Source: a virus. From it: a stretch of DNA of 64,000 nt. Within the stretch, counting starts at the first letter, position 1, and the number at the start of each line of letters is the position of its first letter. Below the pieces are notes generated by a model. That model was not told the origin of the DNA. It did not search any database and was given only the letters and a program-made list of their open reading frames with translations. The stretch lies in IMG/VR virus record IMGVR_UViG_3300025141_013870, positions 54,249-118,248 of that record; one strand, given 5' to 3'. Shown piece after piece: positions 8,654-63,715 of the stretch. The position numbers were made by a program, and so were the translations under genes.

Positions 8654-9586
8654 ATGGATAAGGACTTTTACAACAAGTCGAGCTCAGACAGCCTTGGGTG
8701 GAAACCTGAGTGGTTCGGGTGTAAATATTTCGATGAGGATCTTGTTAAAGCTGTAAGAAAGTGGCAGCGGGAGAACGGATTAACAGGCGACGGTCTTGTT
8801 GGTCCGATGACATATAGAAGAATATGGACAGAGAGAGAATCTCAAATTGATGAATTTAGACCCTATATCTATAGCCCCAAAGACAGTGCTTTCATAGTTC
8901 ATAATGGAAAATTTATTCCTATAGACTGGGGAAAGGTGATTCTATGGTCTGATACGGGTGGTCTCAAAGCTGCACCAGGAGCCTACTATAGCTATGGGGG
9001 ATCAGAAGATAGAAATCCAACAATGTTTGTAAACCACTGGGATGTCTGTCTATCAGCTGAGAGCTGTGCGAAGGTTCTTGCTAGAAGGGGCGTCTCAGTT
9101 CATTTCTGCATAGACAATGATGGAACGATCTATCAACTTCTTGATACACAGCATGCAGCGTGGCATGCTGGAAATTCAAAGGTAAACAGAGCTAGTGTAG
9201 GTGTGGAAATCTCAAATGCATATTACACAAAATATCAGGACTGGTATGAGAGACACGGGTTTGGAGAGCGACCACTATGGACAGACGCAGAGGTCCACGG
9301 AAAGACGCAGAAACCATTTTTAGGATTCTATGACGTTCAAATAGAGGCAGCTAAAGCTCTATGGAGAGCTATTCATGACGGGCTAGGCATTCCGCTAGAG
9401 TGCCCAGTAGATTCTTCTGGAGATATGGTTACAACAACAGTGAGCGAAGTGGCTTCTGGTAAGTTTAAAGGATTTATTCATCACTTTCATGTAACAAGAG
9501 GAAAGATCGACTGCGCAGGATTCGATCTAAAGAATCCTCTTGATGAAGTTAGAACAAGTAGAAAATATTGTATTGATAAGGAATAG
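8654..9586 (+). CDS. N-acetylmuramoyl-L-alanine amidase (endolysin) with peptidoglycan-binding domain
   Basis: Predicted to cleave the amide bond between muramic acid and the stem peptide at lysis. Residues about 27-58 form a PG_binding_1 domain (LVKAVRKWQRENGLTGDG ... GPMTYR). Residues about 110-300 are an Amidase_2 (PGRP-type) domain: FVNHWD gives the first zinc histidine, and GFIHHFHVTRGKIDCAGFD gives the C-terminal histidine/cysteine-aspartate set. There is no signal peptide, so export would need a holin. It starts 2 bases after isocitrate lyase and abuts glutamine synthetase, so it is embedded in the metabolic operon. No strong ribosome site is visible, which suggests coupled translation. 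Confidence 0.85.
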   Translation: MDKDFYNKSSSDSLGWKPEWFGCKYFDEDLVKAVRKWQRENGLTGDGLVGPMTYRRIWTERESQIDEFRPYIYSPKDSAFIVHNGKFIPIDWGKVILWSDTGGLKAAPGAYYSYGGSEDRNPTMFVNHWDVCLSAESCAKVLARRGVSVHFCIDNDGTIYQLLDTQHAAWHAGNSKVNRASVGVEISNAYYTKYQDWYERHGFGERPLWTDAEVHGKTQKPFLGFYDVQIEAAKALWRAIHDGLGIPLECPVDSSGDMVTTTVSEVASGKFKGFIHHFHVTRGKIDCAGFDLKNPLDEVRTSRKYCIDKE

Positions 9587-10636
9587 ATGAAAATGAGACA
9601 TATGAAGATAGAATATGTGTGGATCGATGGTTGCAACCCATGGGGATTAAGATCAAAGGTGAAGGTTTTAAAATTGTCAGATGCCAACTTTAATGACACA
9701 ATAGAAGGGAGCATTGATAACATTCCTGAGTGGGGGTTTGATGGATCGTCAACTGAGCAGGCGTCTGGCGGCGACTCTGATTGTCTTCTACGGCCTGTCA
9801 GGTGTGTCGTAGACTCAATAAGAAACGACTACACCTCAGCAATAGTCTTATGTGACGTTCTTATGGGAGATGGATTTCCCCACCCAACAAACAATAGGTC
9901 GTCACTACTAGAGACATCAAGGCTGTGTGAAAGTCACAAGCCTTTCTTTGGTATCGAGCAGGAGTATACAATAATGAAAGATGAGAGGCCTCTCGGATTT
10001 CCTCCGTCTGGATACCCGGCTCCCCAAGGAAAGTATTATTGCTCAGCGGGCGGAGATAGATCATATGGAAGGAACATATCAGATGAGCATCTAGATGCGT
10101 GCATAGCATCTGGTCTCAATATTACAGGAACAAATGCCGAGGTCATGCCAGGACAGTGGGAATATCAGATAGGGGGACCAGGCGTAGGGCCCGTGGAAGC
10201 GAGTGACGAGCTCTGGATATCTAGATGGATTCTATTAAAGGTAGCAGAGAGAAATGGAATGACTGTCACGTTTGAGCCAAAGCCCATGCTTGGTGACTGG
10301 AATGGCGCAGGATGTCACACAAATTTTAGCACAGAGAAGATGAGAGAGGAAGGCGGCATGAGACACATTGAGCAGGCATGCAAGAAGATGTCAAATAACA
10401 TCCAGCCTCATCTTGACGCGTATGGTGACGGCATAGAGTTTAGACTGACAGGAATGCACGAGACCTGCTCATATAGTGAGTTTAAGTGGGGCGTGGCTGA
10501 TAGAACAGCGTCAATAAGAATACCAAGGGGTGTATCAAATGATGGTCGAGGATATCTCGAGGATAGAAGACCCAATGCCAATTGTGATCCATATCAGGTC
10601 TGTAAGGTGATATTAGAATCGACGTGTATAGATTAA
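9587..10636 (+). CDS. Glutamine synthetase, eukaryote-type (GSII)
   Basis: Makes glutamine from glutamate, ammonia and ATP. The 349-residue length and the motifs YVWIDG, WGFDGSSTEQ, FGIEQEYTI, GTNAEVMPGQWEYQIG, KPMLGDWNGAGCHTN and RIPRG are those of the short decameric GSII family of eukaryotes and some bacteria, not the 470-residue bacterial GSI. It therefore lacks the adenylylation loop used by GlnE to switch GSI off. An insensitive enzyme would be useful to a phage (inference). The start codon directly follows the endolysin stop, with AAGGA at 9578-9582. Its product can feed the asparagine synthetase encoded at 56 kb. Confidence 0.95.
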   Translation: MKMRHMKIEYVWIDGCNPWGLRSKVKVLKLSDANFNDTIEGSIDNIPEWGFDGSSTEQASGGDSDCLLRPVRCVVDSIRNDYTSAIVLCDVLMGDGFPHPTNNRSSLLETSRLCESHKPFFGIEQEYTIMKDERPLGFPPSGYPAPQGKYYCSAGGDRSYGRNISDEHLDACIASGLNITGTNAEVMPGQWEYQIGGPGVGPVEASDELWISRWILLKVAERNGMTVTFEPKPMLGDWNGAGCHTNFSTEKMREEGGMRHIEQACKKMSNNIQPHLDAYGDGIEFRLTGMHETCSYSEFKWGVADRTASIRIPRGVSNDGRGYLEDRRPNANCDPYQVCKVILESTCID

Positions 10637-10643
10637 ACGACTT

Positions 10644-10666
10644 GGATAAGATACATCATCTTATCC
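10644..10666. repeat. Perfect 9-bp inverted repeat after glutamine synthetase
   Basis: GGATAAGAT at 10644-10652 and ATCTTATCC at 10658-10666 form a perfect stem with a 5-base loop. It starts 8 bases after the glutamine synthetase stop and ends 15 bases before the next ATG. No U-tract follows, so it may be an mRNA-stabilising or processing hairpin, a weak terminator, or an operator for a dimeric repressor. Confidence 0.6.
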
Positions 10667-10681
10667 CATATACTTATTAAC

Positions 10682-10909
10682 ATGAAAACGTATATCACCT
10701 CTGATCTGCCCGTAGCAGCTTTTCTCATGATGAGAGGCCTGGCATTAGTCCGCGCTGATAGGCAGTCTGGTAGGTTTGTATTCGAGCTAGAGGATCCTGA
10801 CGGAAAGGCTGCAAAGTTTGCAATAGAGTATCTAAACAGCGACTTTTGTAAGTTTGATAACTACATAAGAAATTTAAAAAGTGTGCTGTATCAGAATAAA
10901 AAACCTTGA
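10682..10909 (+). CDS. Small conserved phage protein (DUF5659-like)
   Basis: 75 residues with the pattern SDLPVAAFLMMRGLALV, then FVFELEDPDG, then a short helix ending in a YIRNLKSVLY-type tail. This resembles the small DUF5659 phage family, of unknown function; I assign it by pattern memory only. The gene is preceded by TATACTTATTAAC directly before the ATG instead of a Shine-Dalgarno sequence. A very similar ATACTTATTA precedes the ATG at 16124. It lies alone between the metabolic operon and the fibre gene. Confidence 0.65.
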   Translation: MKTYITSDLPVAAFLMMRGLALVRADRQSGRFVFELEDPDGKAAKFAIEYLNSDFCKFDNYIRNLKSVLYQNKKP

Positions 10910-11084
10910 GTAGATTCTCGGCTCACGAATATATAATACTAAATCAGTCAGTATTGTAGGTATTCCTTAGAAAGTTAAAAAATGTTAATGATGGTTTGAT
11001 CTGTTTATCTTGCGTGTGTGATAGAAAGAAACGGTCAGTAAAAAAACTTAAACCATTTTTTTAATAACAAAAAGGAGATAAATA
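10910..11084 (+). promoter_or_regulatory. 175-base intergenic region with probable promoter and strong RBS for the fibre gene
   Basis: This is the longest gene-free stretch in the window. It holds TATAAT at 10932-10937, a weak TTGAGT at 10906-10911 (a 20-base spacer, longer than ideal), and a 6-bp inverted repeat AATACT/AGTATT at 10935-10955. AAGGAG at 11072-11077 stands 7 bases before the ATG. ATGGTTT near 10992 and AAACCAT near 11050, followed by seven T residues, could form a long-range terminator-like hairpin, hinting at a small leader RNA. I find no tRNA or ORF here. Confidence 0.45.
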
Positions 11085-13529
11085 ATGGCTATAAAATCAC
11101 AAATTAGAGTACAGCAGGTAACAGGATCTATTATAGATATTGCATACTCTGGCTCACAAACATCGGCTACAAGCCTCACATCCGTCGATGATGGGGATCT
11201 TGGTAGTCTTTTAGGTCAGTTTGCTGGCGCAATCGGTAGAATATCCGGTTACAACGGTTCGGCGGCGACTGGGTTCACAAACGCAGCAGCCGGTACATTT
11301 GCTCAGGATATTATTCCGGAAGCAGACGGAACACGTGACTTAGGTTCCTCTACGAGAGAATGGGCAGAGGTTCACGCTAATGCGATTAACTCTGCTGCTA
11401 CACTTGTCATCAGCGGCACTACTGGTCTTACACTTGATGCAACAACAGTGTCAATCGATGGTATTGACGATTCTAACATCACTGTAACAGCATCTGGAAA
11501 GGACTTAAATATCGGCGTTGCTGGCGGCGGAGCTCAAGTACTCAAGCTAGATTCAGCTGGTACAGGTACTGACGCTATTGACGTTAATGCTTCTGCTGGC
11601 GGAATTGACATCGACGCATCCGGTGCAATCAGTTTAGACTCTTCAGCTGGATCAATCGACATCAATGTAGTGGACGGCCAGACGGTGAGCGTCGGCCTAA
11701 ACGGGGCAGTCGAGACAATATGGACGCCACATGCCACTGCAGGTAACGAGAAGTGGTCAACGACCAACACTGCTGGTACCGCGACTGATGCAATTGCGCT
11801 CACTGCGACTGCTGGCGGTGTTACAGTTGATGGCGGAGGTGGTGTCAATATTGTTGGTAACACTGCTGAGGTTGATATTACGACGACAGGTGCACTTGAC
11901 CTAAATTCAGGCGCTTTTACCTTGAATGGATCTACTGTTGGAATTGATGGTACAAGTGTCTTGACTCTGGGTGCAGCTTCAATGAATATTGATTCTGATG
12001 GTGGAGCAATTGATATGGATGCATCAACCACAGTTACCATTGGTGGCTCCAACGCAACCGGCGTTACAATCGGTCGAGCAGATAAGAACGTTACAATTCC
12101 TGGAAACCTGATAGTTAACGGTACTGCAACTTACATTAATACAAGCGAGTTGATGGTAGAAGATAAGCAGGTGGTCATCGGTATTCCTGGTGGCATGACA
12201 GACCCCGGAACTGCTACATACGCTCTAACTTCAGATGTTGTCACGGTAACAAGCGAAGCCCACGGGTTGACGAACGGACAGTATGTTCTCATATCTGATC
12301 CAGCCGCAACGCCACTTATCCCTGAGGGAGTCTATCTGATTACCTCTGTTGCTGATGCTGATACATTCACATTTGCATATGTCAGGGCTAATGTTCCCGC
12401 TGGTACTGCTATCGATCACTCAGTGAACGATGTAACAGACGCTACTGCTAGTGGATCTGGAATAATGCTTGCACCTGCATCAGCTGTACCGACCTTGCTT
12501 AAGTGGGATTCGACGACTGGTTGGCTCTTAGGCGGACCTGCTTCGTCAACTGCTGGCCTTTCACCAAATGTCGACGGCTCAGGAGCTCTTGGTGCTCCAG
12601 CTAAACGATGGGCAGATCTCTTCCTCGCGGAAGGTGGTGTTATCAACTGGGATAATGGTGATATGACCATGACTCAGGCTAGCGATGTTCTTACTGTTGC
12701 TGGCGGCGATATCCTTATGGATACCACTCAGAAGATTACTTTTGGTAACGCTAATAACGCTATCAATCTTAATACTGATCTCGTCATTGATGCTGCTGCT
12801 GACATCACTCTTGATGCCGCTGGTGGAAATGTTAAACCTGCTTCGAATGATCAGGCTGCTCTCGGTGTTAGTGGAACGGGTTGGTCAGACCTATTCCTTG
12901 CTGATGGTGCTGTGATTGACGTTAATGCTGGTAACTCCACTCTCACGGGTGGAAGTGCTGCTTGGGTTTCAAACGTTAAGTTCCAGGCTACAAGACTACA
13001 AGTTGATGGTGCTAATGACTATCTTGATGTCAACACTGATTTCACTATGACTGCTGCTGCAGATATTCGCCTTGCGGCGGGTGGTGCAGATGTTCAGCTT
13101 CGAGGCAGTGGAACCAATGACTTCATCTCCTTACAGAGAGCTAGTACAACAATTCAATACATGAACTTTGCAGCTGATGATTCTTCTGCAGCTCCTGGTG
13201 TTGCTGCAGCCGGTTTCGGTTTCCGCAACAATGCTGGGACCATGCAGTTCAAGAATAGCGCTGGATCATGGCAGAACATCGCTGCTGGAACAGGTGAAGC
13301 TCGTGTTAAGGATGTCGTAACAGTTGCAGCGACAGCGACAGCAGTTACATCCACATCTAGTGGATTCCTAGCATTGGCTCCAAATGATCTTGATGTCTAC
13401 CTAAACGGACAGCTGATGGCATCTGGATCTGGAGGTACTGGTAATGACTATAACGTCACAGCAACAAGTGTGGTTACATTCACATTTAATGTTGAGCCAG
13501 ATGACACCGTAACGTTTGTCAAGCCCTAA
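11085..13529 (+). CDS. Large fibre-like virion structural protein
   Basis: 814 residues, rich in glycine, alanine, serine, threonine and aspartate, and almost free of cysteine. It is built of short repeating beta-strand units such as TLDATTVSIDG, ITLDAAGGNV and similar. Three copies of a phage-fibre motif LGxxxxxWxxLFLA(E/D)G-like are seen near residues 85-100, 495-520 and 590-615. The block PGNLIVNGTATYINTS at about 345-360 is common in fibres of marine phages. GC content and CGN codon use are higher than in neighbours, typical of highly expressed virion genes. It has its own promoter region and strong RBS and is closed by a strong terminator. The role as tail fibre or head fibre is inferred. 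Confidence 0.8.
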   Translation: MAIKSQIRVQQVTGSIIDIAYSGSQTSATSLTSVDDGDLGSLLGQFAGAIGRISGYNGSAATGFTNAAAGTFAQDIIPEADGTRDLGSSTREWAEVHANAINSAATLVISGTTGLTLDATTVSIDGIDDSNITVTASGKDLNIGVAGGGAQVLKLDSAGTGTDAIDVNASAGGIDIDASGAISLDSSAGSIDINVVDGQTVSVGLNGAVETIWTPHATAGNEKWSTTNTAGTATDAIALTATAGGVTVDGGGGVNIVGNTAEVDITTTGALDLNSGAFTLNGSTVGIDGTSVLTLGAASMNIDSDGGAIDMDASTTVTIGGSNATGVTIGRADKNVTIPGNLIVNGTATYINTSELMVEDKQVVIGIPGGMTDPGTATYALTSDVVTVTSEAHGLTNGQYVLISDPAATPLIPEGVYLITSVADADTFTFAYVRANVPAGTAIDHSVNDVTDATASGSGIMLAPASAVPTLLKWDSTTGWLLGGPASSTAGLSPNVDGSGALGAPAKRWADLFLAEGGVINWDNGDMTMTQASDVLTVAGGDILMDTTQKITFGNANNAINLNTDLVIDAAADITLDAAGGNVKPASNDQAALGVSGTGWSDLFLADGAVIDVNAGNSTLTGGSAAWVSNVKFQATRLQVDGANDYLDVNTDFTMTAAADIRLAAGGADVQLRGSGTNDFISLQRASTTIQYMNFAADDSSAAPGVAAAGFGFRNNAGTMQFKNSAGSWQNIAAGTGEARVKDVVTVAATATAVTSTSSGFLALAPNDLDVYLNGQLMASGSGGTGNDYNVTATSVVTFTFNVEPDDTVTFVKP

Positions 13530-13566
13530 TAAGATCTCTTCTAATTAGATTAGATTTTAGTTTCCT

Positions 13567-13600
13567 GGCGGGGTCCTTTTTATAAGGACCCCGCCTTTTT
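13567..13600 (+). terminator. Rho-independent terminator of the fibre gene
   Basis: Perfect 12-bp GC-rich stem: GGCGGGGTCCTT at 13567-13578 pairs with AAGGACCCCGCC at 13584-13595 across a 5-base loop. A T-tract follows at 13596-13600, continuing as ATTTTTT. It lies 38 bases after the fibre stop. Confidence 0.95.
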
Positions 13601-13617
13601 ATTTTTTCTATCGTTAG

Positions 13618-13626
13618 TGTTATTAT
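13618..13626 (+). promoter_or_regulatory. Candidate extended -10 promoter after the terminator
   Basis: TG-T-TATTAT at 13618-13626 has the TGn extension of an extended -10 element. The predicted start near 13633 leaves the GGAG at 13649-13652 and the ATG at 13658 intact. Its position just after a strong terminator supports a new transcription unit. Confidence 0.4.
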
Positions 13627-13657
13627 ATGCCTGTTGTTATAAATGCCTGGAGTAAAC

Positions 13658-14167
13658 ATGACTTTTGAATTGGATGAGATAGGATTATTAATAGAAAAGC
13701 TTAGTAATGAAAGAAATGAGCTAGATGATAACGTGGTTACATTGTCTTCATCTGTTATTCAATTAAGTAACCTGGCCTCTGCGGCGGGAAATATTTCTAA
13801 TAACTTGCAGGTCTCACTTAGTGAATCAGATAATGAATCTGAGACATTAAATATACTGTTAGCTGGATTTAACAATCTTTCATCTCTAGTGAGTTCTCAT
13901 CCTAACGTAATATCACAATCGATAATTAGGATGCAAGCACAGCGCGAGAAGATAGAATCTGTGATAGAAAGTTTAAAAGAATCTCAAGAAAAAATTAACG
14001 TAAGAAATGCTGCACAAGATAAATTAATTAAAAAGCTCAAAGATGAGGGTACCTCATCTGGTGATAGAGAAGTAGGAACACACCCAGATGGTCTTTCAAA
14101 GATAAGAAAAGCTAAGTCAAAAATGAACAAAAAAGACGAGAAGGCCAATACACAGCTTGATACATAA
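13658..14167 (+). CDS. Unknown coiled-coil protein
   Basis: 169 residues, helical throughout. There are coiled-coil heptads near 5-35 and 90-130, a serine-rich middle and a lysine-rich C-terminal tail (after GTHPDG). No signal peptide or membrane span is seen. The ATG at 13658 is preferred over an in-frame ATG at 13643 because GGAG at 13649-13652 is correctly placed for it. It is the first gene of a new unit after the terminator. The function is unknown. Confidence 0.7.
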   Translation: MTFELDEIGLLIEKLSNERNELDDNVVTLSSSVIQLSNLASAAGNISNNLQVSLSESDNESETLNILLAGFNNLSSLVSSHPNVISQSIIRMQAQREKIESVIESLKESQEKINVRNAAQDKLIKKLKDEGTSSGDREVGTHPDGLSKIRKAKSKMNKKDEKANTQLDT

Positions 14168-49876: not shown

Positions 49877-51665
<1,789 letters not shown>

Positions 51666-55590: not shown

Positions 55591-55806
55591 ATGTCACGAG
55601 GCTCTTTAGTTAAATTATCAGAAACAGCTAAGATATCAATTTGTATTGATTCACCTAATGATGTTTGCGGGCTTGTTCTAGGTCTTGTAGATTTTTATGA
55701 TGTTACGGGCATACGTGATCCTAAGCCCGTGTGCTATTCTGTGTTTTTAGAGTCTGGATTGACTGAAACATTTTATGAAGAAGATTTGGAGGTGATCTGT
55801 GAGTAG
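55591..55806 (+). CDS. Small SH3-like unknown protein
   Basis: 71 residues with beta-strands (GSLVKLSETAKISICID, GLVLGLVDFYDVTG) and an acidic end. ATAAGG lies just before the ATG. It overlaps the next gene by 8 bases. Unknown. Confidence 0.55.
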   Translation: MSRGSLVKLSETAKISICIDSPNDVCGLVLGLVDFYDVTGIRDPKPVCYSVFLESGLTETFYEEDLEVICE

Positions 55807-56269
55807 AAAGATAATAGCTGTTAGCGGCGGATTTGATCCTATTCACGTAGGACATGTGAGAATGATACTAGATGCTGGTACTCATGGAGACGTTATCATT
55901 ATTTTGAATACCGATGAGTGGCTTATGAGAAAGAAAGGATATACATTCATGAACTGGGAGGAGAGGGCTGAGATCCTTCGAAGCATACGTGGAGTTATGA
56001 ATGTCGTTGCTGCAAAAGATGATGATAACACTGTGTGTGAAACTTTGCGAAATCTTAAGGTTGATATTGATCTTAATACATTTGCAAATGGCGGTGATAG
56101 AGTCACGTCAAATACACCTGAGATGGATACATGCAAAGATCTAGGGATCTCATTGTTGTGGAATTGCGGAGGCGGAAAGATTCAGAGCAGTTCATCTCTT
56201 GTTGACACAAGGGTCTGGAGTAAGGATGGCATATGGAACAGATCTACAAAGAAAAAGGACAAAGAGTAG
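55799..56269 (+). CDS. Cytidylyltransferase-like nucleotidyltransferase (HldE-C/RfaE-like)
   Basis: 156 residues from a GTG (GGAGG 8 bases upstream). GGFDPIHVGHVRM contains the HxGH motif, FANGGDR is the conserved late strand and IQSSSSLVDTR matches ISSTxxR. This is the fold of ADP-heptose synthase and glycerol-3-phosphate cytidylyltransferase. It may activate a sugar or alcohol for a surface glycan. It lies just upstream of asparagine synthetase. Confidence 0.82.
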   Translation: MSRKIIAVSGGFDPIHVGHVRMILDAGTHGDVIIILNTDEWLMRKKGYTFMNWEERAEILRSIRGVMNVVAAKDDDNTVCETLRNLKVDIDLNTFANGGDRVTSNTPEMDTCKDLGISLLWNCGGGKIQSSSSLVDTRVWSKDGIWNRSTKKKDKE

Positions 56270-56272
56270 AGA

Positions 56273-57871
56273 ATGTGCGGCTTTTTAACTTACTTTGGTT
56301 ATGACTATGATCTTTTTCAATTGGAAGAGTCGTCTAAGAAAATAAGCTATAGAGGTCCTGATACATCATCATACAAGACAATATCGCCTAATGTTGTGAT
56401 GACATTTCACCGGCTTGCCATAATGGACACATCATCTTTAGGTGATCAGCCTTTGTTTCACCCTGAGGATGCTAGCCTATCCTTGGTGTGCAATGGTGAG
56501 ATCTATAATTATAAAACTTTAATAGATGAGCTTGGGTTTCAAATGAAATCTAATTCTGATTGTGAAGTCATTTTGCATCTTTATAAAAAATACGGTATAG
56601 AAAAAACAGTTGAGATGCTTGATGGAGTTTTTGCATTTACACTATACGATGGAAAAAAGAATATCTTATTTGCATCTAGAGATTCATTTGGTGTGAGGCC
56701 TTCGTTTATAGGATGGGATAACCGCGGTGGCGTTGCGATTGCTAGCGAGATAAAAGCTTTAGTTGATATTTGTGATAAGAGTATAATTCCCTTCCCGCCA
56801 GGATCATGGTGGGCTTCTGACGTTCCTTATGCATTTACAGGGTTTAATGTACATTTTGATAATAAATTTCAAAAGGGCGATGAAAAAGAATTTTGTAAAA
56901 ATATAAAAAATCTTCTAACTAATTCTGTTAAAAAGAGAATGATGTCTGATAGGGAGGTAGGATGCTTGTTATCTGGTGGACTAGATTCCAGCCTGATATC
57001 AGCATTAGTTGCCTCGATGACAGACGACAGAAAAAAATTAAAAACATTTTCAATTGGCATGGAAGGAAGTCCAGACTTAGATCATGCAAAAATAGTTGCA
57101 GATCACATAGGATCTGATCATCACTCAATTCAATTATCTCAACAGGAATTTCTTGATGCTATAGATGTTGTTATTTATAACATCGAATCATATGATACAA
57201 CGACAGTTAGAGCATCAGTGGGAAATTATCTAGTTTCAAAATACATTAGAGAGAACACAGATGTTAAAGTTGTATTTAATGGTGACGGAGCAGATGAGGT
57301 ATGTATGGGATATGTTTATAATAAGCATGCTCCCTCTGTAGATGATTTTTACAATGAGAACATTAAGCTAATTGATGAAATTTATATGTTTGATGTATTA
57401 CGATCAGATAGATGCGTGAGCTCTAATGGACTTGAAGCCCGCACACCATTTCTTGATAAAAAATTTGTAGAATATTATATGTCAATTCCGCCTGAGATGA
57501 AGATGTTCGGTAGCAACAAAAGACCTGAAAAATATCTTTTACGCAAGGCATTTGAAAAATCTAATCTTCTTCCTGATGAAGTTTTGTGGCGTCGCAAGTG
57601 TGCTTTTTCAGATGGTGTGAGCAGTATTGAAAATTCATGGCACAAAACGTTGCAAAAGTTTATAAATTCTCAGGTCACAGATAAAGAGTTTGAGAGAGAA
57701 AGGGCAAAGATCGAGCACTGTTCTCCTATTTTAAAAGAAAGTTACTATTATAGGAAGGTTTTTAAGACGTTTTTTGGAGATAATTCTCATATTATTCCTC
57801 ACTTTTGGATGCCAAATTGGTCAGATACAGTTGATCCTTCTGCTAGAGAGTTATCTGGATATAAAGAATAG
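56273..57871 (+). CDS. asnB: Asparagine synthetase, glutamine-hydrolysing
   Basis: 532 residues. The N-terminal glutaminase has the nucleophile C2 (MCGF) and CNGEIYNY; the synthetase domain has the PP-loop LLSGGLDSS near 234-242 and SIGMEGSPDLDHAKIVADHI. The full length and both active sites suggest it works, turning aspartate plus glutamine into asparagine. Alternatively it may amidate another acceptor such as a sugar, since AsnB-like proteins often occur in surface-sugar clusters and a cytidylyltransferase-like gene is adjacent. Confidence 0.93.
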   Translation: MCGFLTYFGYDYDLFQLEESSKKISYRGPDTSSYKTISPNVVMTFHRLAIMDTSSLGDQPLFHPEDASLSLVCNGEIYNYKTLIDELGFQMKSNSDCEVILHLYKKYGIEKTVEMLDGVFAFTLYDGKKNILFASRDSFGVRPSFIGWDNRGGVAIASEIKALVDICDKSIIPFPPGSWWASDVPYAFTGFNVHFDNKFQKGDEKEFCKNIKNLLTNSVKKRMMSDREVGCLLSGGLDSSLISALVASMTDDRKKLKTFSIGMEGSPDLDHAKIVADHIGSDHHSIQLSQQEFLDAIDVVIYNIESYDTTTVRASVGNYLVSKYIRENTDVKVVFNGDGADEVCMGYVYNKHAPSVDDFYNENIKLIDEIYMFDVLRSDRCVSSNGLEARTPFLDKKFVEYYMSIPPEMKMFGSNKRPEKYLLRKAFEKSNLLPDEVLWRRKCAFSDGVSSIENSWHKTLQKFINSQVTDKEFERERAKIEHCSPILKESYYYRKVFKTFFGDNSHIIPHFWMPNWSDTVDPSARELSGYKE

Positions 57872-58168: not shown

Positions 58169-58365
58169 GCTTAACTCTTTACAAGGTGATAGCGTGGAGA
58201 ATGGTATCTACTATAATTGGAACTTTTGTTACAATTCTATACACAGGAAACGTTAACAAAGCAGTTACTTTAGTTTTATTATTAACAGTTATTTTAACTG
58301 GAGTACACTACATTTTTGAAAGATTGTGGGAAACTCTTATCATAGGAACAAATAATGGAAAGTAA
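58165..58365 (+). CDS. DUF2061-like membrane protein
   Basis: 66 residues: KVIAWRMVSTIIGTFVTILYTGN and a second span, then YIFERLWETL. The pattern WRxxxTxxT ... TG ... Y..ERxW is that of the DUF2061 family (two spans). The function of the family is unknown to me. It overlaps both neighbours. Confidence 0.7.
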   Translation: MSLTLYKVIAWRMVSTIIGTFVTILYTGNVNKAVTLVLLLTVILTGVHYIFERLWETLIIGTNNGK

Positions 58366-58537
58366 TGAAGTAGAAAAGATGGTCATGCTTAGGCAATTTG
58401 TGATAGATGCATTTAATTCACTGGACGGAAAGAGTGAGCCTCTTTCAATGATTAAGCAGCAAGACGTAGCTTATACGCTATCGAGTGTGATTAAAAGCAT
58501 TGATGAACTACTTGTCGATTATGTAAAATTTGATTAA
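58355..58537 (+). CDS. Small helical protein, unknown
   Basis: 60 residues, helical (NEVEKMVMLRQFVIDAFN), no membrane span. It overlaps the previous gene by 11 bases and is followed by a hairpin. Unknown. Confidence 0.55.
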   Translation: MESNEVEKMVMLRQFVIDAFNSLDGKSEPLSMIKQQDVAYTLSSVIKSIDELLVDYVKFD

Positions 58538-58554: not shown

Positions 58555-58579
58555 AACCCCTATATTTAATATAGGGGTT
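58555..58579 (+). terminator. 11-bp hairpin, probable terminator
   Basis: AACCCCTATAT (58555-58565) and ATATAGGGGTT (58569-58579) pair perfectly across a 3-base loop. A-rich sequence precedes and TACATTT follows, a weak T-tract. It may end the upstream unit. The right arm carries GGGG just 10 bases before the ATG at 58587, so it could also hide a ribosome site. Confidence 0.6.
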
Positions 58580-58586
58580 TACATTT

Positions 58587-59570
58587 ATGATCAGCTGGAT
58601 CAAATCTCTCCTATATGATAGGAAAGATATGAAGCATAGAGAATTTAGTTCTCATGCTAATGTAAACTTACACAGCATGATGAACAAGGGAAGATATTTG
58701 ATAATATCTTCCTTTTTTATTTTTCTAGGCTGCCAAAGCGATATAACTGTCACAAGTCAACAAGAGACAGCCGTGATTATAGATTCTGTTTTTCAGTCTG
58801 ATCAGATTGGAGAGCTTGATGTTTTAGTTGCACTAGATACATCTGGCTCAATGAGAGACAACGATGAGGCTGTGGGAACAGGTATAGAATTATTTAGAGC
58901 AGACGTGGAATCTTTAACAAATCAATATCAATTTGGATTCATCACTATGGATTCTAATTATTTGAACTATGTAGGGCCTTACGATCGTTCTTCGTCATCA
59001 ATTGATCTTATGCTTGCGCCAAGCTTGCTTCCTTCTACGTCTGGAGAGGCTGGCTTTGAAGCATCTTATATATTTTTAATGAGCGAAGATGGGCTTGATT
59101 TCCGACGCCCAGAAGCTGATTTTTTGTTATTTCTAGTATCAGATGAAGAAGAGCAAAGCTCTATAAGTGCACAGATATTTTATGAGTGGTTGCAAGAGTT
59201 TTTTCAAGATGTCAGACATGATGTAACTGTCATCACAACAACTCCTGAAGGAGACTGTAGTGATGACTGGGGCCAGGGAACGGGAATAGGATACAAATAT
59301 ATTGAGCTTTGTGATCTGTACACAAAGGATACAATTGATATTTGTGATGAAGATTGGGAGGTATGGCTTGCAGATAGCTCTTTTTTAACACAGATGATTA
59401 GCTCTGTTCATCTGAGTCAAACTCCAATCCAGGAGTCAATTATAGTATATGTTGATAGTGAGTCAATATACGGGTGGTCATATGATGAAGAATCCAATAT
59501 AGTTCATCTAGATCATACACCAAATTATGGATCTCTAATTGAGGTTGGATACAAAGTACTACTAGAGTGA
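58587..59570 (+). CDS. von Willebrand A-domain lipoprotein
   Basis: 327 residues from 58587, or about 297 from ATG 58677/58680, which places the lipoprotein signal (YLIISSFFIFLGC) correctly at the N terminus. The lipobox LGC is followed by a VWA domain with the metal site DTSGSM near residue 87. A C-terminal beta domain contains TPIQESIIVYVDSE and IYGWSYDEESN. It is anchored outside the membrane and probably binds another protein or surface. The next gene is a paralogue. Such proteins are typical of bacteria, not phages. Confidence 0.8.
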   Translation: MISWIKSLLYDRKDMKHREFSSHANVNLHSMMNKGRYLIISSFFIFLGCQSDITVTSQQETAVIIDSVFQSDQIGELDVLVALDTSGSMRDNDEAVGTGIELFRADVESLTNQYQFGFITMDSNYLNYVGPYDRSSSSIDLMLAPSLLPSTSGEAGFEASYIFLMSEDGLDFRRPEADFLLFLVSDEEEQSSISAQIFYEWLQEFFQDVRHDVTVITTTPEGDCSDDWGQGTGIGYKYIELCDLYTKDTIDICDEDWEVWLADSSFLTQMISSVHLSQTPIQESIIVYVDSESIYGWSYDEESNIVHLDHTPNYGSLIEVGYKVLLE

Positions 59571-59579
59571 GGTGAGATT

Positions 59580-61229
59580 ATGAGATTATTGTTTATTTTG
59601 ATAGCTATGATAACATCATGCAGTGACTATAATCTCACAAAATATACAGAGGAAATAGAGCCTGGAATATTAGAGCCTGAAATAGAGGTGACGCCTGAAG
59701 AACACGACTTTGGGAATCTTAATGCTGATGGTGAAACTGACAATCTTATCATTAGAATATCTAATGAAGGATCTGATACGCTTTCTCTTGACGCAGCGTA
59801 TCTAATTGATGGAAATGAAAATTTCACCATGACATCTTTACAGGCGGGAGCGCTAGAACCTAATGATTCAACTGAGCTAATCATCACGTATGACCCAGGT
59901 ACATATGAATCTAATAGTGACATTGTAAGCATATGGTCCAATGACTCTGATGAAACAGAGGTTCAGATACCAATTGGTGGCGCCGGTGACGCTCCGGTTA
60001 TTAGAGTCACACCTGAGACTTATGATTTTGGTGCGGTGTTTGTGGGATGTGATGACTCTTTAGGGATCCTTATTGAAAATGTGGGAAATGTTGATTTAGA
60101 AATTTCTGATCTTGAATATTTTGCAAGCCTACCTGTTGACTTCTCTATCGAGGATTATAATTCATCAGAGGGTCCACTGCCGTGGACACTTTCGCCCTCA
60201 GATTGGATTCACCTAAGAGTTGAATACACTCCTCTTGACGATCTAGATGATGGAGCATGGGTGGAAATAACTTCAAATGACCCTGTAAATTCTTTATCTA
60301 CTTCAATGCACGAAGGCATTGGAGACTATGAGGCTTGGGTACAAGATAGCTTTACGCAAGATGGCGATGCAACAGTTGATATACTTTTTGTTGTCGACAA
60401 TTCAGGTTCAATGTCAGCCAATCAGTCGAATCTTAAAAATAACTTTGATGATTTTATGGCAGTTTTTGTGAGTGCTGGCGTTGATTATCAAGTCGCAATT
60501 ATCACAACAGATCAATCAGAGTTTATAGGAGATATAATAACACCTCTAACATTTGACCCTGTTACAGAGTTCGGAAATCAAATAGATCTCGTAGGATACG
60601 GCGGCTCAGCTATTGAAAAGGGTCTTTGGTATGCATATGAATCAACAACAACTGGAGATGCTTCATCATCATCTTCAGTAGGGTTTTTAAGAGAATCAGC
60701 GAGGCTCGTACTAGTTTATATTTCTGATGAGCCAGATGCTTCTACAAGCTTAGCTTACGGCGGAGGCTCTTCGACAATGACGCCTTCAGATTACTCTGCA
60801 AGCCTTTTATCACTCAAGACTTCTTCTAGTCTAGTAGTGGCTCATGCAGTTGCAGGTGATTACCCGTCTGGCTGCTCTGGCAATGGACACGCTACATTTG
60901 GAGATGGATATTATGATGTGGTTAATGATTTAGGTGGTACGTTCATGTCAATTTGTGCCGAGGACTGGAGTGTGACAATGGATACTCTAGCTAGAGAATC
61001 TATGGCTCAACACTTGTTTAATCTTACAGACAATCCAATCGAAGATACAATTTCAGCTACAGTTGATGGCTATGCGTCTACTGACTGGTCTTACGATAGT
61101 TCATTGAATGCAGTTATATTTAGCGTAGCACCTTCTGACGGAAGTGTGATTGAAATAGAATATGCAATATTATCTGATTGTGAATCAGAGAGCGGTGATA
61201 CAGGCAGTGCTGACACGAGTGGCGAGTAA
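59580..61229 (+). CDS. Lipoprotein with two HYDIN/ASH-like domains and a VWA domain
   Basis: 549 residues. The signal LLFILIAMITSCS ends in a lipobox cysteine near 15. Two Ig-like domains of the ASH/HYDIN 'choice-of-anchor' type follow (VTPEEHDFGNLNADGETDN and VTPETYDFGAVFVG). Next is a VWA domain with DNSGSMSAN near 275. The C-terminal beta domain (NPIEDTISATVDG, TDWSYDSSLNAV) matches the previous protein. The end GDTGSADTSGE is common in Myxococcota and related lipoproteins. GAGGTGAG upstream is the ribosome site. Confidence 0.85.
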   Translation: MRLLFILIAMITSCSDYNLTKYTEEIEPGILEPEIEVTPEEHDFGNLNADGETDNLIIRISNEGSDTLSLDAAYLIDGNENFTMTSLQAGALEPNDSTELIITYDPGTYESNSDIVSIWSNDSDETEVQIPIGGAGDAPVIRVTPETYDFGAVFVGCDDSLGILIENVGNVDLEISDLEYFASLPVDFSIEDYNSSEGPLPWTLSPSDWIHLRVEYTPLDDLDDGAWVEITSNDPVNSLSTSMHEGIGDYEAWVQDSFTQDGDATVDILFVVDNSGSMSANQSNLKNNFDDFMAVFVSAGVDYQVAIITTDQSEFIGDIITPLTFDPVTEFGNQIDLVGYGGSAIEKGLWYAYESTTTGDASSSSSVGFLRESARLVLVYISDEPDASTSLAYGGGSSTMTPSDYSASLLSLKTSSSLVVAHAVAGDYPSGCSGNGHATFGDGYYDVVNDLGGTFMSICAEDWSVTMDTLARESMAQHLFNLTDNPIEDTISATVDGYASTDWSYDSSLNAVIFSVAPSDGSVIEIEYAILSDCESESGDTGSADTSGE

Positions 61230-61819: not shown

Positions 61820-63715
61820 ATGAGCAAAGTAATAGGGATCGATTTAGGCACAACAAATTCTTGTGTCGCTGTAATTGAAGGAAATCAACCAAAAGTCATT
61901 ACAAATGAAGAAGGGAATCGTACGACGCCTTCTGTAGTTGCTTTTGACAAAGAGGGAGACAGACTTGTTGGAGTTGCTGCACGTCGCCAAGCAGTTACAA
62001 ATCCTGATTCTACGATTTATTCTGTAAAGAGATTTATGGGAATGCGCTTCAAAGAGGCGAAGAAAGAAATCAAAAATGTTCCATACAAAGTGACGCAGTC
62101 AAGCGATGGTGATTGTAGAATTTCAGTAAATGGTAAGAATCTTGCTGCAGCAGAGATTTCTGCACATGTCTTATCAAAGCTCAAGCGTAGTGCTGAATCT
62201 TATCTTGGTCACAAAGTGACTGAAGCTGTTATCACGGTTCCCGCTTACTTTAATGATTCTCAGCGTCAGGCTACAAAGGATGCTGGAAAGATAGCTGGCC
62301 TGGATGTAAAGCGTATTATTAATGAACCTACAGCTGCAGCGCTTGCATATGGTTTTGATAAAAAAGGTGAGCAGAAGATAGCTGTATTTGACTTAGGCGG
62401 AGGAACTTTTGATATCTCTATTTTAGAAATTTCTGAAAATGTTGTTGAAGTTTTAAGTACAAACGGTAATACACATCTTGGCGGTGATGACATTGATCAA
62501 ATTTTAATTACGTGGCTTATTGATACATTTAAATCAGACACTGGTCTTGACATAAGCGACGATAGTATGGTAATTCAAAGGTTGAAAGATGCAGCGGAAA
62601 AAGCTAAGATAGAGTTATCTAGTGCGCCGACAACTGAAATTAACTTGCCTTTTTTAACAGCTGACTCTACAGGGCCCAAGCACATAGCAGTTAATCTATC
62701 TAGATCTGAATTTGAAAAGATGATTGATAAATTTTCAAAGAAGACGCTTGTTCCTGTTCGAGCTGCTTTGAAAGATGCAGGATTGTCAAAGAAGTCTATT
62801 GATGAAGTTATAATGGTAGGAGGATCAACAAGAATCCCTCTGATAAGAAACACTGTAGAAAAATTCTTTGGAAAGAAGTCTAACAACTCTGTAAACCCCG
62901 ATGAGGTCGTTGCTCTTGGTGCAGCTGTTCAAGGCGGCGTATTCTCCGGAGAGGTCAACGATGTGCTTCTTTTAGACGTAACTCCGCTATCTCTGGGAAT
63001 AGAAACGCTGGGAGGAGTAATGACACGACTAATAGATAGAAACACTACAATCCCATGTCAAAAGAGCGAGATATTCAGCACGGCTGCAGACAATCAGCCA
63101 ACAGTAGATATACATGTCTTGCAGGGTGAACGTAGATTTTCAGATGACAATAGAACCTTAGGAAGATTTCAACTTGATGGAATTCCCCCAGCGCCAAGAG
63201 GGATACCTCAAATTGAGGTGACATTTGATATTGATGCAAACGGTATCGTAAGTGTTGCTGCAGCAGATAAGGCGACTCAAAAAGAGCAATCCATTACAAT
63301 TACTTCTGGAAACTCTCTATCTGAAGATGAAATACAGGAAATGGTAGCTGAAGCAAAGGAAAATGAAGAGAGAGACAAAGAGAAGCAAAGAACAATCGAA
63401 GCTCGTAATAAGCTAGATAGCCTCACTTATCAAAGTGAAAAGACAATCAATGAGAATGGTGAAAAGATCCCAGAAGAAACTATTCAGTTGATCAAAGATG
63501 AGCTATCTTCAGCAAAAGAAGCACTTGATTCTGATGATGTCGATGCTATGGAGGCAGCCTTTAAATCTCTTGAAACGGTGTTTCATGAAACAGTAAAGTC
63601 TCTATACGCAGATTCTGTGAAGGAGTCCATAGAAAATACGTCTGACATAGATTTTTCTAATATTGGAAATGATACGAAAGCATCTACGGAGGCCGCTACT
63701 GAGCCTAATGCCTAG
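61820..63715 (+). CDS. dnaK: Chaperone DnaK (Hsp70)
   Basis: 631 residues, full length. Nucleotide-binding domain signatures are all present: [13 protein letters not shown] (1-20 region), [14 protein letters not shown] (near 190-203) and [12 protein letters not shown] (near 332-343). The substrate domain has [16 protein letters not shown] (near 382-397), and a helical lid follows. The C-terminal tail ends TEAATEPNA and lacks the usual bacterial EEVKD-type ending. ACAGGAG lies 8 bases before the ATG. With DnaJ, GroEL, ClpP and a J-domain protein it makes up a proteostasis kit. The 96-base gap upstream shows no other feature. Confidence 0.97.

Follow-up and report, generated by a model that had tools for sequence, protein, structure and literature searches.

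Phage-encoded VWA/MIDAS lipoproteins and their linkage to exported-type proteases in uncultured phages

Bd0875 is a lipobox-bearing adhesin with a metal-ion-dependent adhesion site (MIDAS) that is located at the predator-prey junction, and mutants of its metal site lose function (PMC11003981). CglB and CglD are outer-membrane lipoproteins of the Myxococcus gliding machinery with a von Willebrand factor A (VWA) domain, in the case of CglD by prediction (PMC4488436, PMC13104615). Among phages, T5 makes the outer-membrane lipoprotein Llp, which inactivates the receptor FhuA (PMC9586334). Here we describe two adjacent genes of an uncultured aquatic phage, P1 and P2, at positions 58587 to 61229 of a 64,000-nucleotide stretch (the window), which is the final 64 kb of a linear IMG/VR virus record of 118,248 bases (IMGVR_UViG_3300025141_013870). 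P1 and P2 encode a short (SHORT) and a long (LONG) VWA/MIDAS lipoprotein, respectively, of a phage family whose genes are linked to those of exported-type proteases.

Both proteins have the lipobox cysteine that was noticed in a first-pass annotation of the window (Cys19 in P1 and Cys14 in P2), and both are predicted to adopt a Rossmann-like VWA fold. The AlphaFold model of P1, which was built from 45 relatives, has a mean pLDDT of 88 and matches the integrin I domain 1ck4 (Z 16.3, root-mean-square deviation [rmsd] 3.1, 179 residues aligned); the Pfam VWA match in P1 is sub-threshold (E 0.1). The model of P2, which was built from six sequences (pLDDT 81, pTM 0.52), matches the bacterial VWA protein 4fx5 (Z 16.8, rmsd 2.8, 174 residues aligned), with a weak Pfam VWA match (9e-4). 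The HYDIN-like immunoglobulin-like (Ig-like) domains claimed for one of the two proteins were confirmed in P2 (Pfam PF22544, E 1.3e-13; NCBIfam choice_anch_D, 2e-20). The similarity of the C-terminal domains of P1 and P2 is also real, as judged from alignments. In the models, this small beta domain is built from one strand that precedes the VWA domain and others that follow it, an arrangement shared with integrin beta chains and Bd0875.

Relatives were searched for in 2.9 million viral contigs, and were found in at least 142 contigs with a P1-led alignment and in at least 78 with a P2-led alignment, two sets that overlap partly, together with 29 relatives in GTDB representatives. The view that such lipoproteins are strange in a phage therefore fails. 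The contigs bearing relatives come from many metagenomes and several of them exceed 200 kb, so that the record may cover only part of the genome of a large phage. Queries with P1, P2 and a typical SHORT protein found no VWA relative in 50,697 phage records; the family is thus a conserved part of phage genomes that is unrepresented in those records. At least seven other contigs (L116, L117, L118, L120, L121, L122, and L134) carry a tandem SHORT-LONG pair, and L144 resembles a near copy of L121. A defence-system search with PADLOC gave no match for P1 or P2.

Exported-type N termini with a lipobox are found throughout the family, and nearly all complete SHORT proteins have a lipobox-like stretch and, after it, a linker of 28-75 residues in which Val/Glu runs are common. 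Three LONG proteins of ~890 aa (L146, L147, and L015:3251-5902) carry several extra HYDIN-like repeats, as if the stalk had been extended. Each of the 139 distinct, complete members of the family has both the DxSxS and the SDE motif; because these are never lost, the binding site is likely to be under selection. The metal site had been described as intact, which holds for the DxSGS motif and the Asp of the SDE motif; the canonical MIDAS Thr appears to be replaced across the family, its position being occupied by another residue in the alignments with an invariant Glu nearby, and three complete MIDAS loops are not established.

The linked exported protease is the main clue to function. In many loci, a gene for a trypsin-like protease lies immediately before or after a VWA gene and shares its strand. 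This protease has invariant H81, D112, and S184 (Trypsin_2, PF13365, 2.1e-17) and, as judged by eye, an N-terminal signal peptide or lipobox. When all loci were counted without dereplication, a protease (trypsin-like or metzincin) was found at 81 of the 327 positions adjoining a VWA gene vs 34 of the 3145 more distant positions, with the neighbourhoods of the P1-led set taken from the best 80 of its 142 relatives. After dereplication (80% identity), a protease was directly adjacent to 27 of 63 SHORT and 18 of 48 LONG genes, always on the same strand and in both orders. In the reverse test with the protease as bait, an adjacent VWA gene was found in 28 of 33 distinct protease loci, a set from the best 80 matches and skewed to the group of the query. 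Three contigs of 235-293 kb (L117, L118, and L120) have a compact protease-SHORT-LONG cassette, which is bordered by opposite-strand genes on its upstream side and shortly downstream. Twenty-one of the 26 large VWA contigs that have no adjacent trypsin-like gene have one elsewhere (18 at E <1e-14), a count that covers VWA-carrying contigs only.

No protease of this family was found up to 5 kb on each side of the bacterial VWA relatives sampled, and the pairing therefore looks phage-specific. The trypsin-like protease query gave only one weak match in the 50,697 phage records, and no phage VWA lipoprotein with a protease was reported in the part of the literature that was covered. The protease was also considered as a component of a known defence system, and was rejected because it bears no more than a general resemblance to trypsin-like domains found in LmuA, RT-Protease, and Avs1b (PADLOC). 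Genes for a thioredoxin-like lipoprotein are also frequent in the neighbourhood, directly beside 8 of 48 LONG and 5 of 63 SHORT genes.

A second type of protease, a metzincin, is encoded directly after the LONG gene in 14 of 48 cases. The HExGHxxG motif was present in 24 of 24 distinct members, with a conserved later His; one member matched Pfam Matrixin just under the cut-off (1.4e-4) and a second member had no match. In loci L150-L170 (e.g., L156:9267-9791), the protein directly after LONG is small, exported or membrane-anchored, and metzincin-like (HExGHxxGxxH). Metzincin-like proteins of this family are also common in other phages beside unrelated genes of about 655, 310, and 1143 aa. As a general VWA partner the metzincin was rejected, since none of 54 distinct, independently found metzincin loci had a VWA gene within three genes. 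The metzincin link is confined to a part of the LONG group and is weaker evidence than the trypsin-like link, because such metzincins occur widely without VWA genes.

We tentatively propose, at somewhat less than even confidence, that P1 and P2 belong to a surface-adhesin and exported-protease module that alters the envelope of the infected cell, likeliest to stop re-adsorption. The adhesin would be made in the infected cell and then exported to its envelope, where it would be displayed on the outer surface by a lipid anchor and a stalk, the latter being a linker that is often Val/Glu-rich in SHORT or Ig-like domains in LONG, with a metal-dependent VWA/MIDAS head carried on the small beta domain. 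Its partner would be the co-encoded exported protease, which is trypsin-like or, beside some LONG genes, a metzincin. The adhesin would bind a host surface protein, and the protease, working together with it physically, would cut that protein or mature the adhesin. The likeliest purpose is that receptors would be disabled or masked, so that the infected cell and its debris would no longer adsorb siblings or competing phages. Superinfection exclusion through receptor inactivation appears to be the purpose that needs the fewest assumptions, and T5 Llp, although unrelated, sets a precedent for a phage outer-membrane lipoprotein. If true, exclusion or surface remodelling would depend on binding and cutting, a strategy that differs from that of the small blocking lipoproteins described to date. 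Complement factor B is an example of a VWA-protease pair. It is conceivable, though doubtful, that large uncultured phages, perhaps those of predatory or gliding bacteria, share a widespread undescribed module in which the binding of an integrin-like MIDAS adhesin directs or gates protease action on the surface of the infected cell, as a viral parallel to factor B.

Several observations weigh against this proposal. In one phage group (L011, L024, L034, L046, and L061), the SHORT gene is flanked by tail sheath/tube genes on one side and by a very long gene (1146-1660 aa) on the other, a position that may point to late expression or to a role in the virion. A protease is not directly adjacent in 36 of 63 SHORT and 30 of 48 LONG distinct loci. 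Neither protease model matches anywhere on the 118-kb record itself. In L116, the nearest relative, the order of genes for a sigma factor, a cytidylyltransferase, a small protein, SHORT, LONG, and DnaK is syntenic with the window and a trypsin-like protease gene follows 3.5 kb past DnaK; because the contig of the window stops 285 bases beyond DnaK, the simplest reading is that the protease gene of this phage lies beyond the contig end, which is a prediction. The missing protease is accounted for solely by this presumed position. In L062 and L066, too, the SHORT VWA gene lies inside the tail block, with sheath/tube genes and a very long gene on its two sides.

Two rivals have serious weight. 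One is that the module serves release or escape: a late MIDAS lipoprotein would dock the exported protease on one face of the outer membrane, and the protein coat or the cell-cell adhesion complexes would be broken for the exit of progeny. The tail-block position in one phage group fits such late expression and the partners are indeed proteases, trypsin-like or metzincin, but most contexts have no recognisable lysis genes nearby, and the endolysin-like gene of the window (8654-9586) is 49 kb off; we regard release as unlikely. To a similarly low degree we credit a change in the behaviour of the host, in which host-like adhesins would make the infected cell stick to neighbours or particles, or would act as a decoy that disturbs the adhesion or motility apparatus. 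P2 matches two NCBIfam models, those of the Bdellovibrio MIDAS adhesin and CglD, LONG is placed among Myxococcota proteins, and DnaK points to the same bacterial genomes (see below); against this, the SHORT proteins are phage-specific and distant from host copies, and the sampled bacterial loci have no protease linkage. That the VWA proteins decorate the tail or capsid, bind the host in adsorption, and are matured by the protease is quite improbable: the tail-block position in the L034/L046/L061-like contigs and the annotation of one among other phage VWA proteins as a virion structural protein speak for it, but the lipobox Cys is invariant in the aligned SHORT set and is followed by a stalk, and most loci place the gene outside recognisable structural blocks. 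Finally, although bacterial relatives are known and a Myxococcota protein of the same layout shares 36% identity with P2, a misassembled or misbinned viral contig containing bacterial DNA is barely conceivable and P1 and P2 are genuine phage genes, because the record carries phage replication genes (DnaB helicase, DNA polymerase, and ribonucleotide reductase) besides the endolysin-like gene, at least 142 viral contigs have relatives, and L116, an independent viral contig, keeps the same gene pair and the order of the sigma factor, cytidylyltransferase, small gene, and DnaK.

The first-pass annotation also described P1 and P2 as paralogous. Our trees of the VWA region, which are rooted for drawing only and have some long branches, placed the SHORT proteins in a phage-only group (support 99/91), and 47 of 48 LONG phage proteins in one clade (100/98) that falls among HYDIN-VWA lipoproteins of Myxococcota. 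Because P1 and P2 fall into different well-supported clades, a recent duplication within this phage is ruled out. From its placement, LONG was probably acquired early from a Myxococcota-like bacterium, the direction being our reading of an unrooted tree, and SHORT probably represents a branch that is older or separate. Nearly all of the 29 relatives from GTDB representatives belong to Myxococcota, Bdellovibrionota, or unresolved Deltaproteobacteria, which, with the CglD and Bdellovibrio MIDAS adhesin matches of P2, agrees with the statement that proteins of this kind are normal in predatory or gliding bacteria. Three of the 29 (L103, L107, and L111) were dropped as host evidence, since they read as phage stretches in metagenome-assembled genomes (MAGs). 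In L111:1-5837 (CP070664.1), part of the "chromosome" of a WOR-3 MAG, phage DNA that encodes a protease-VWA pair follows a run of N, which probably reflects an error of scaffolding. L093 (CAMAWH010000002.1) is titled Klebsiella pneumoniae, probably wrongly; its GC content is 0.64 and its VWA protein groups with Myxococcota-type rows.

The suggestion that the proteins hint at the host group gained a second line of evidence from the DnaK of the phage. In a comparison confined to Myxococcota, Bdellovibrionota, and Pseudomonadota plus a handful of single genomes, the best identity of this DnaK was 66%, to Myxococcota, with 56-59% to Bdellovibrionota and no match at E <1e-245 in 249 Pseudomonadota. 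The top three of the first 25 genomes tested (L087, L088, and L089) also carry the nearest bacterial relatives of LONG in the first tree. The LONG relatives and DnaK, two kinds of evidence, both point to Myxococcota as the source of the genes and perhaps as the host. A group of uncultured large phages would thus be tied to Myxococcota-like hosts, an assignment that is testable. The phage encodes a divergent GroEL (50064-51665) in addition to DnaK; GroEL was rejected as a host marker, being uninformative (45-49% to nearly all genomes tried).

The features of the locus are collected in Table 1. The ATG from which P1 is listed lies a few bases past a stable hairpin and yields no signal peptide. 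Translation from the ATG at 58677 begins with MMNKGRYLIISSFFIFLGC, so that the protein has a signal peptide and lipobox, and this position agrees with homologues; the true start is therefore probably there. P2 begins with MRLLFILIAMITSC, 9 bases past the P1 stop and on the same strand, and is preceded by a purine-rich stretch that resembles a ribosome-binding site. The small 60-aa gene belongs to cluster c20, which was seen in 11 loci and often adjoins the VWA genes of related phages. At 55799-57871 of the window there is a cytidylyltransferase-like gene, which is kept in many VWA loci, and a gene for asparagine synthase (glutamine-hydrolysing) comes after it. Elsewhere in the window, an open reading frame at 11085-13529 (814 aa) has no PHROGs match, and GC content rises up to 0.45 across 10001-14000 (0.33-0.42 elsewhere).

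Table 1. Features of the P1-P2 locus (positions in the window).
Feature	Position	Strand	Remark
P1, SHORT MIDAS lipoprotein, 297 aa	58677..59570	+	ORF (open reading frame) listed from 58587
P1 lipobox Cys19 (FLGC)	58731..58733	+	Cys19 invariant, 45 sequences
P1 VWA/MIDAS domain (predicted), residues about 46-236	58812..59384	+	model, fold match, motifs
P1 DTSGS motif	58836-58850	+	within VWA/MIDAS domain
P1 small beta domain, C-terminal part (WSYD...IEVGY)	59400..59567	+	
P2, LONG HYDIN-HYDIN-VWA lipoprotein, 549 aa	59580..61229	+	
P2 lipobox Cys14 (ITSC-SDY)	59619..59621	+	Cys invariant
P2 two HYDIN-like Ig domains, residues about 33-132 and 141-249, predicted stalk	59676..60326	+	
P2 VWA/MIDAS domain (predicted), residues about 264-477	60369..61010	+	Pfam and model
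P2 C-terminal beta domain, residues about 479-530	61014..61169	+	
Small conserved gene, 60 aa, no known family	58355..58537	+	L116_19 homologue, 39%, same place
Hairpin AACCCCTATATTTAATATAGGGGTT, terminator-like, T-run on minus strand, just upstream of cassette	58555..58579	.	
DnaK gene (context)	61820..63715	+	same place in L116

By layout, Bd0875 is the nearest characterised protein. Like Bd0875 and Bd1483, P1 and P2 have a lipobox, the DxSxS motif, and a VWA/MIDAS domain inserted in a small beta domain split into N- and C-terminal parts (PMC11003981; NF052240), together with a conserved acidic residue near the site and conserved Trp/Tyr in the small domain, and this architecture is found across the P1/P2 family in sequences and models. 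Unlike Bd0875 and Bd1483, they are encoded by a phage and have a protease partner, and LONG has an Ig-like stalk; the score of P2 against NF052240 (39.9 bits vs an equivalog cut-off of 700) indicates a related but different protein. P2 resembles CglD (NF033765) as a VWA lipoprotein with a model match of 2.9e-8 and bacterial relatives in Myxococcota, but it is far shorter than the 1124-position model, its score is below the cut-off (32.0 bits vs 400), and gliding genes are not adjacent. With the HYDIN (choice-of-anchor D)-VWA lipoproteins of Myxococcota, represented by L089, P2 shares the whole layout in the same full-length domain order (36% identity), including the lipobox Cys followed by (E)SDY, but no protease of the family was found up to 5 kb on each side of the bacterial genes. 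Judging from the lipobox, Ig repeats, VWA domain, C-terminal domain, and tree, P2 belongs to this class; P1, which lacks Ig repeats, groups apart from it. T5 Llp is similar as a phage lipoprotein for the outer membrane of the infected cell and in the purpose proposed here, but it is small and periplasmic, with no VWA domain or protease partner described, and we claim no homology. The predicted VWA and small beta domains also align over ~250 residues with the integrin beta headpiece, in which an I-like domain is inserted in a hybrid domain (Z 14-15 and rmsd 5-6.5 for P2), but identity is 8-14% and the hybrid part matches loosely. The kind of adhesin, a MIDAS adhesin lipoprotein, is thus already known, and its location in phages and its protease partners are new.
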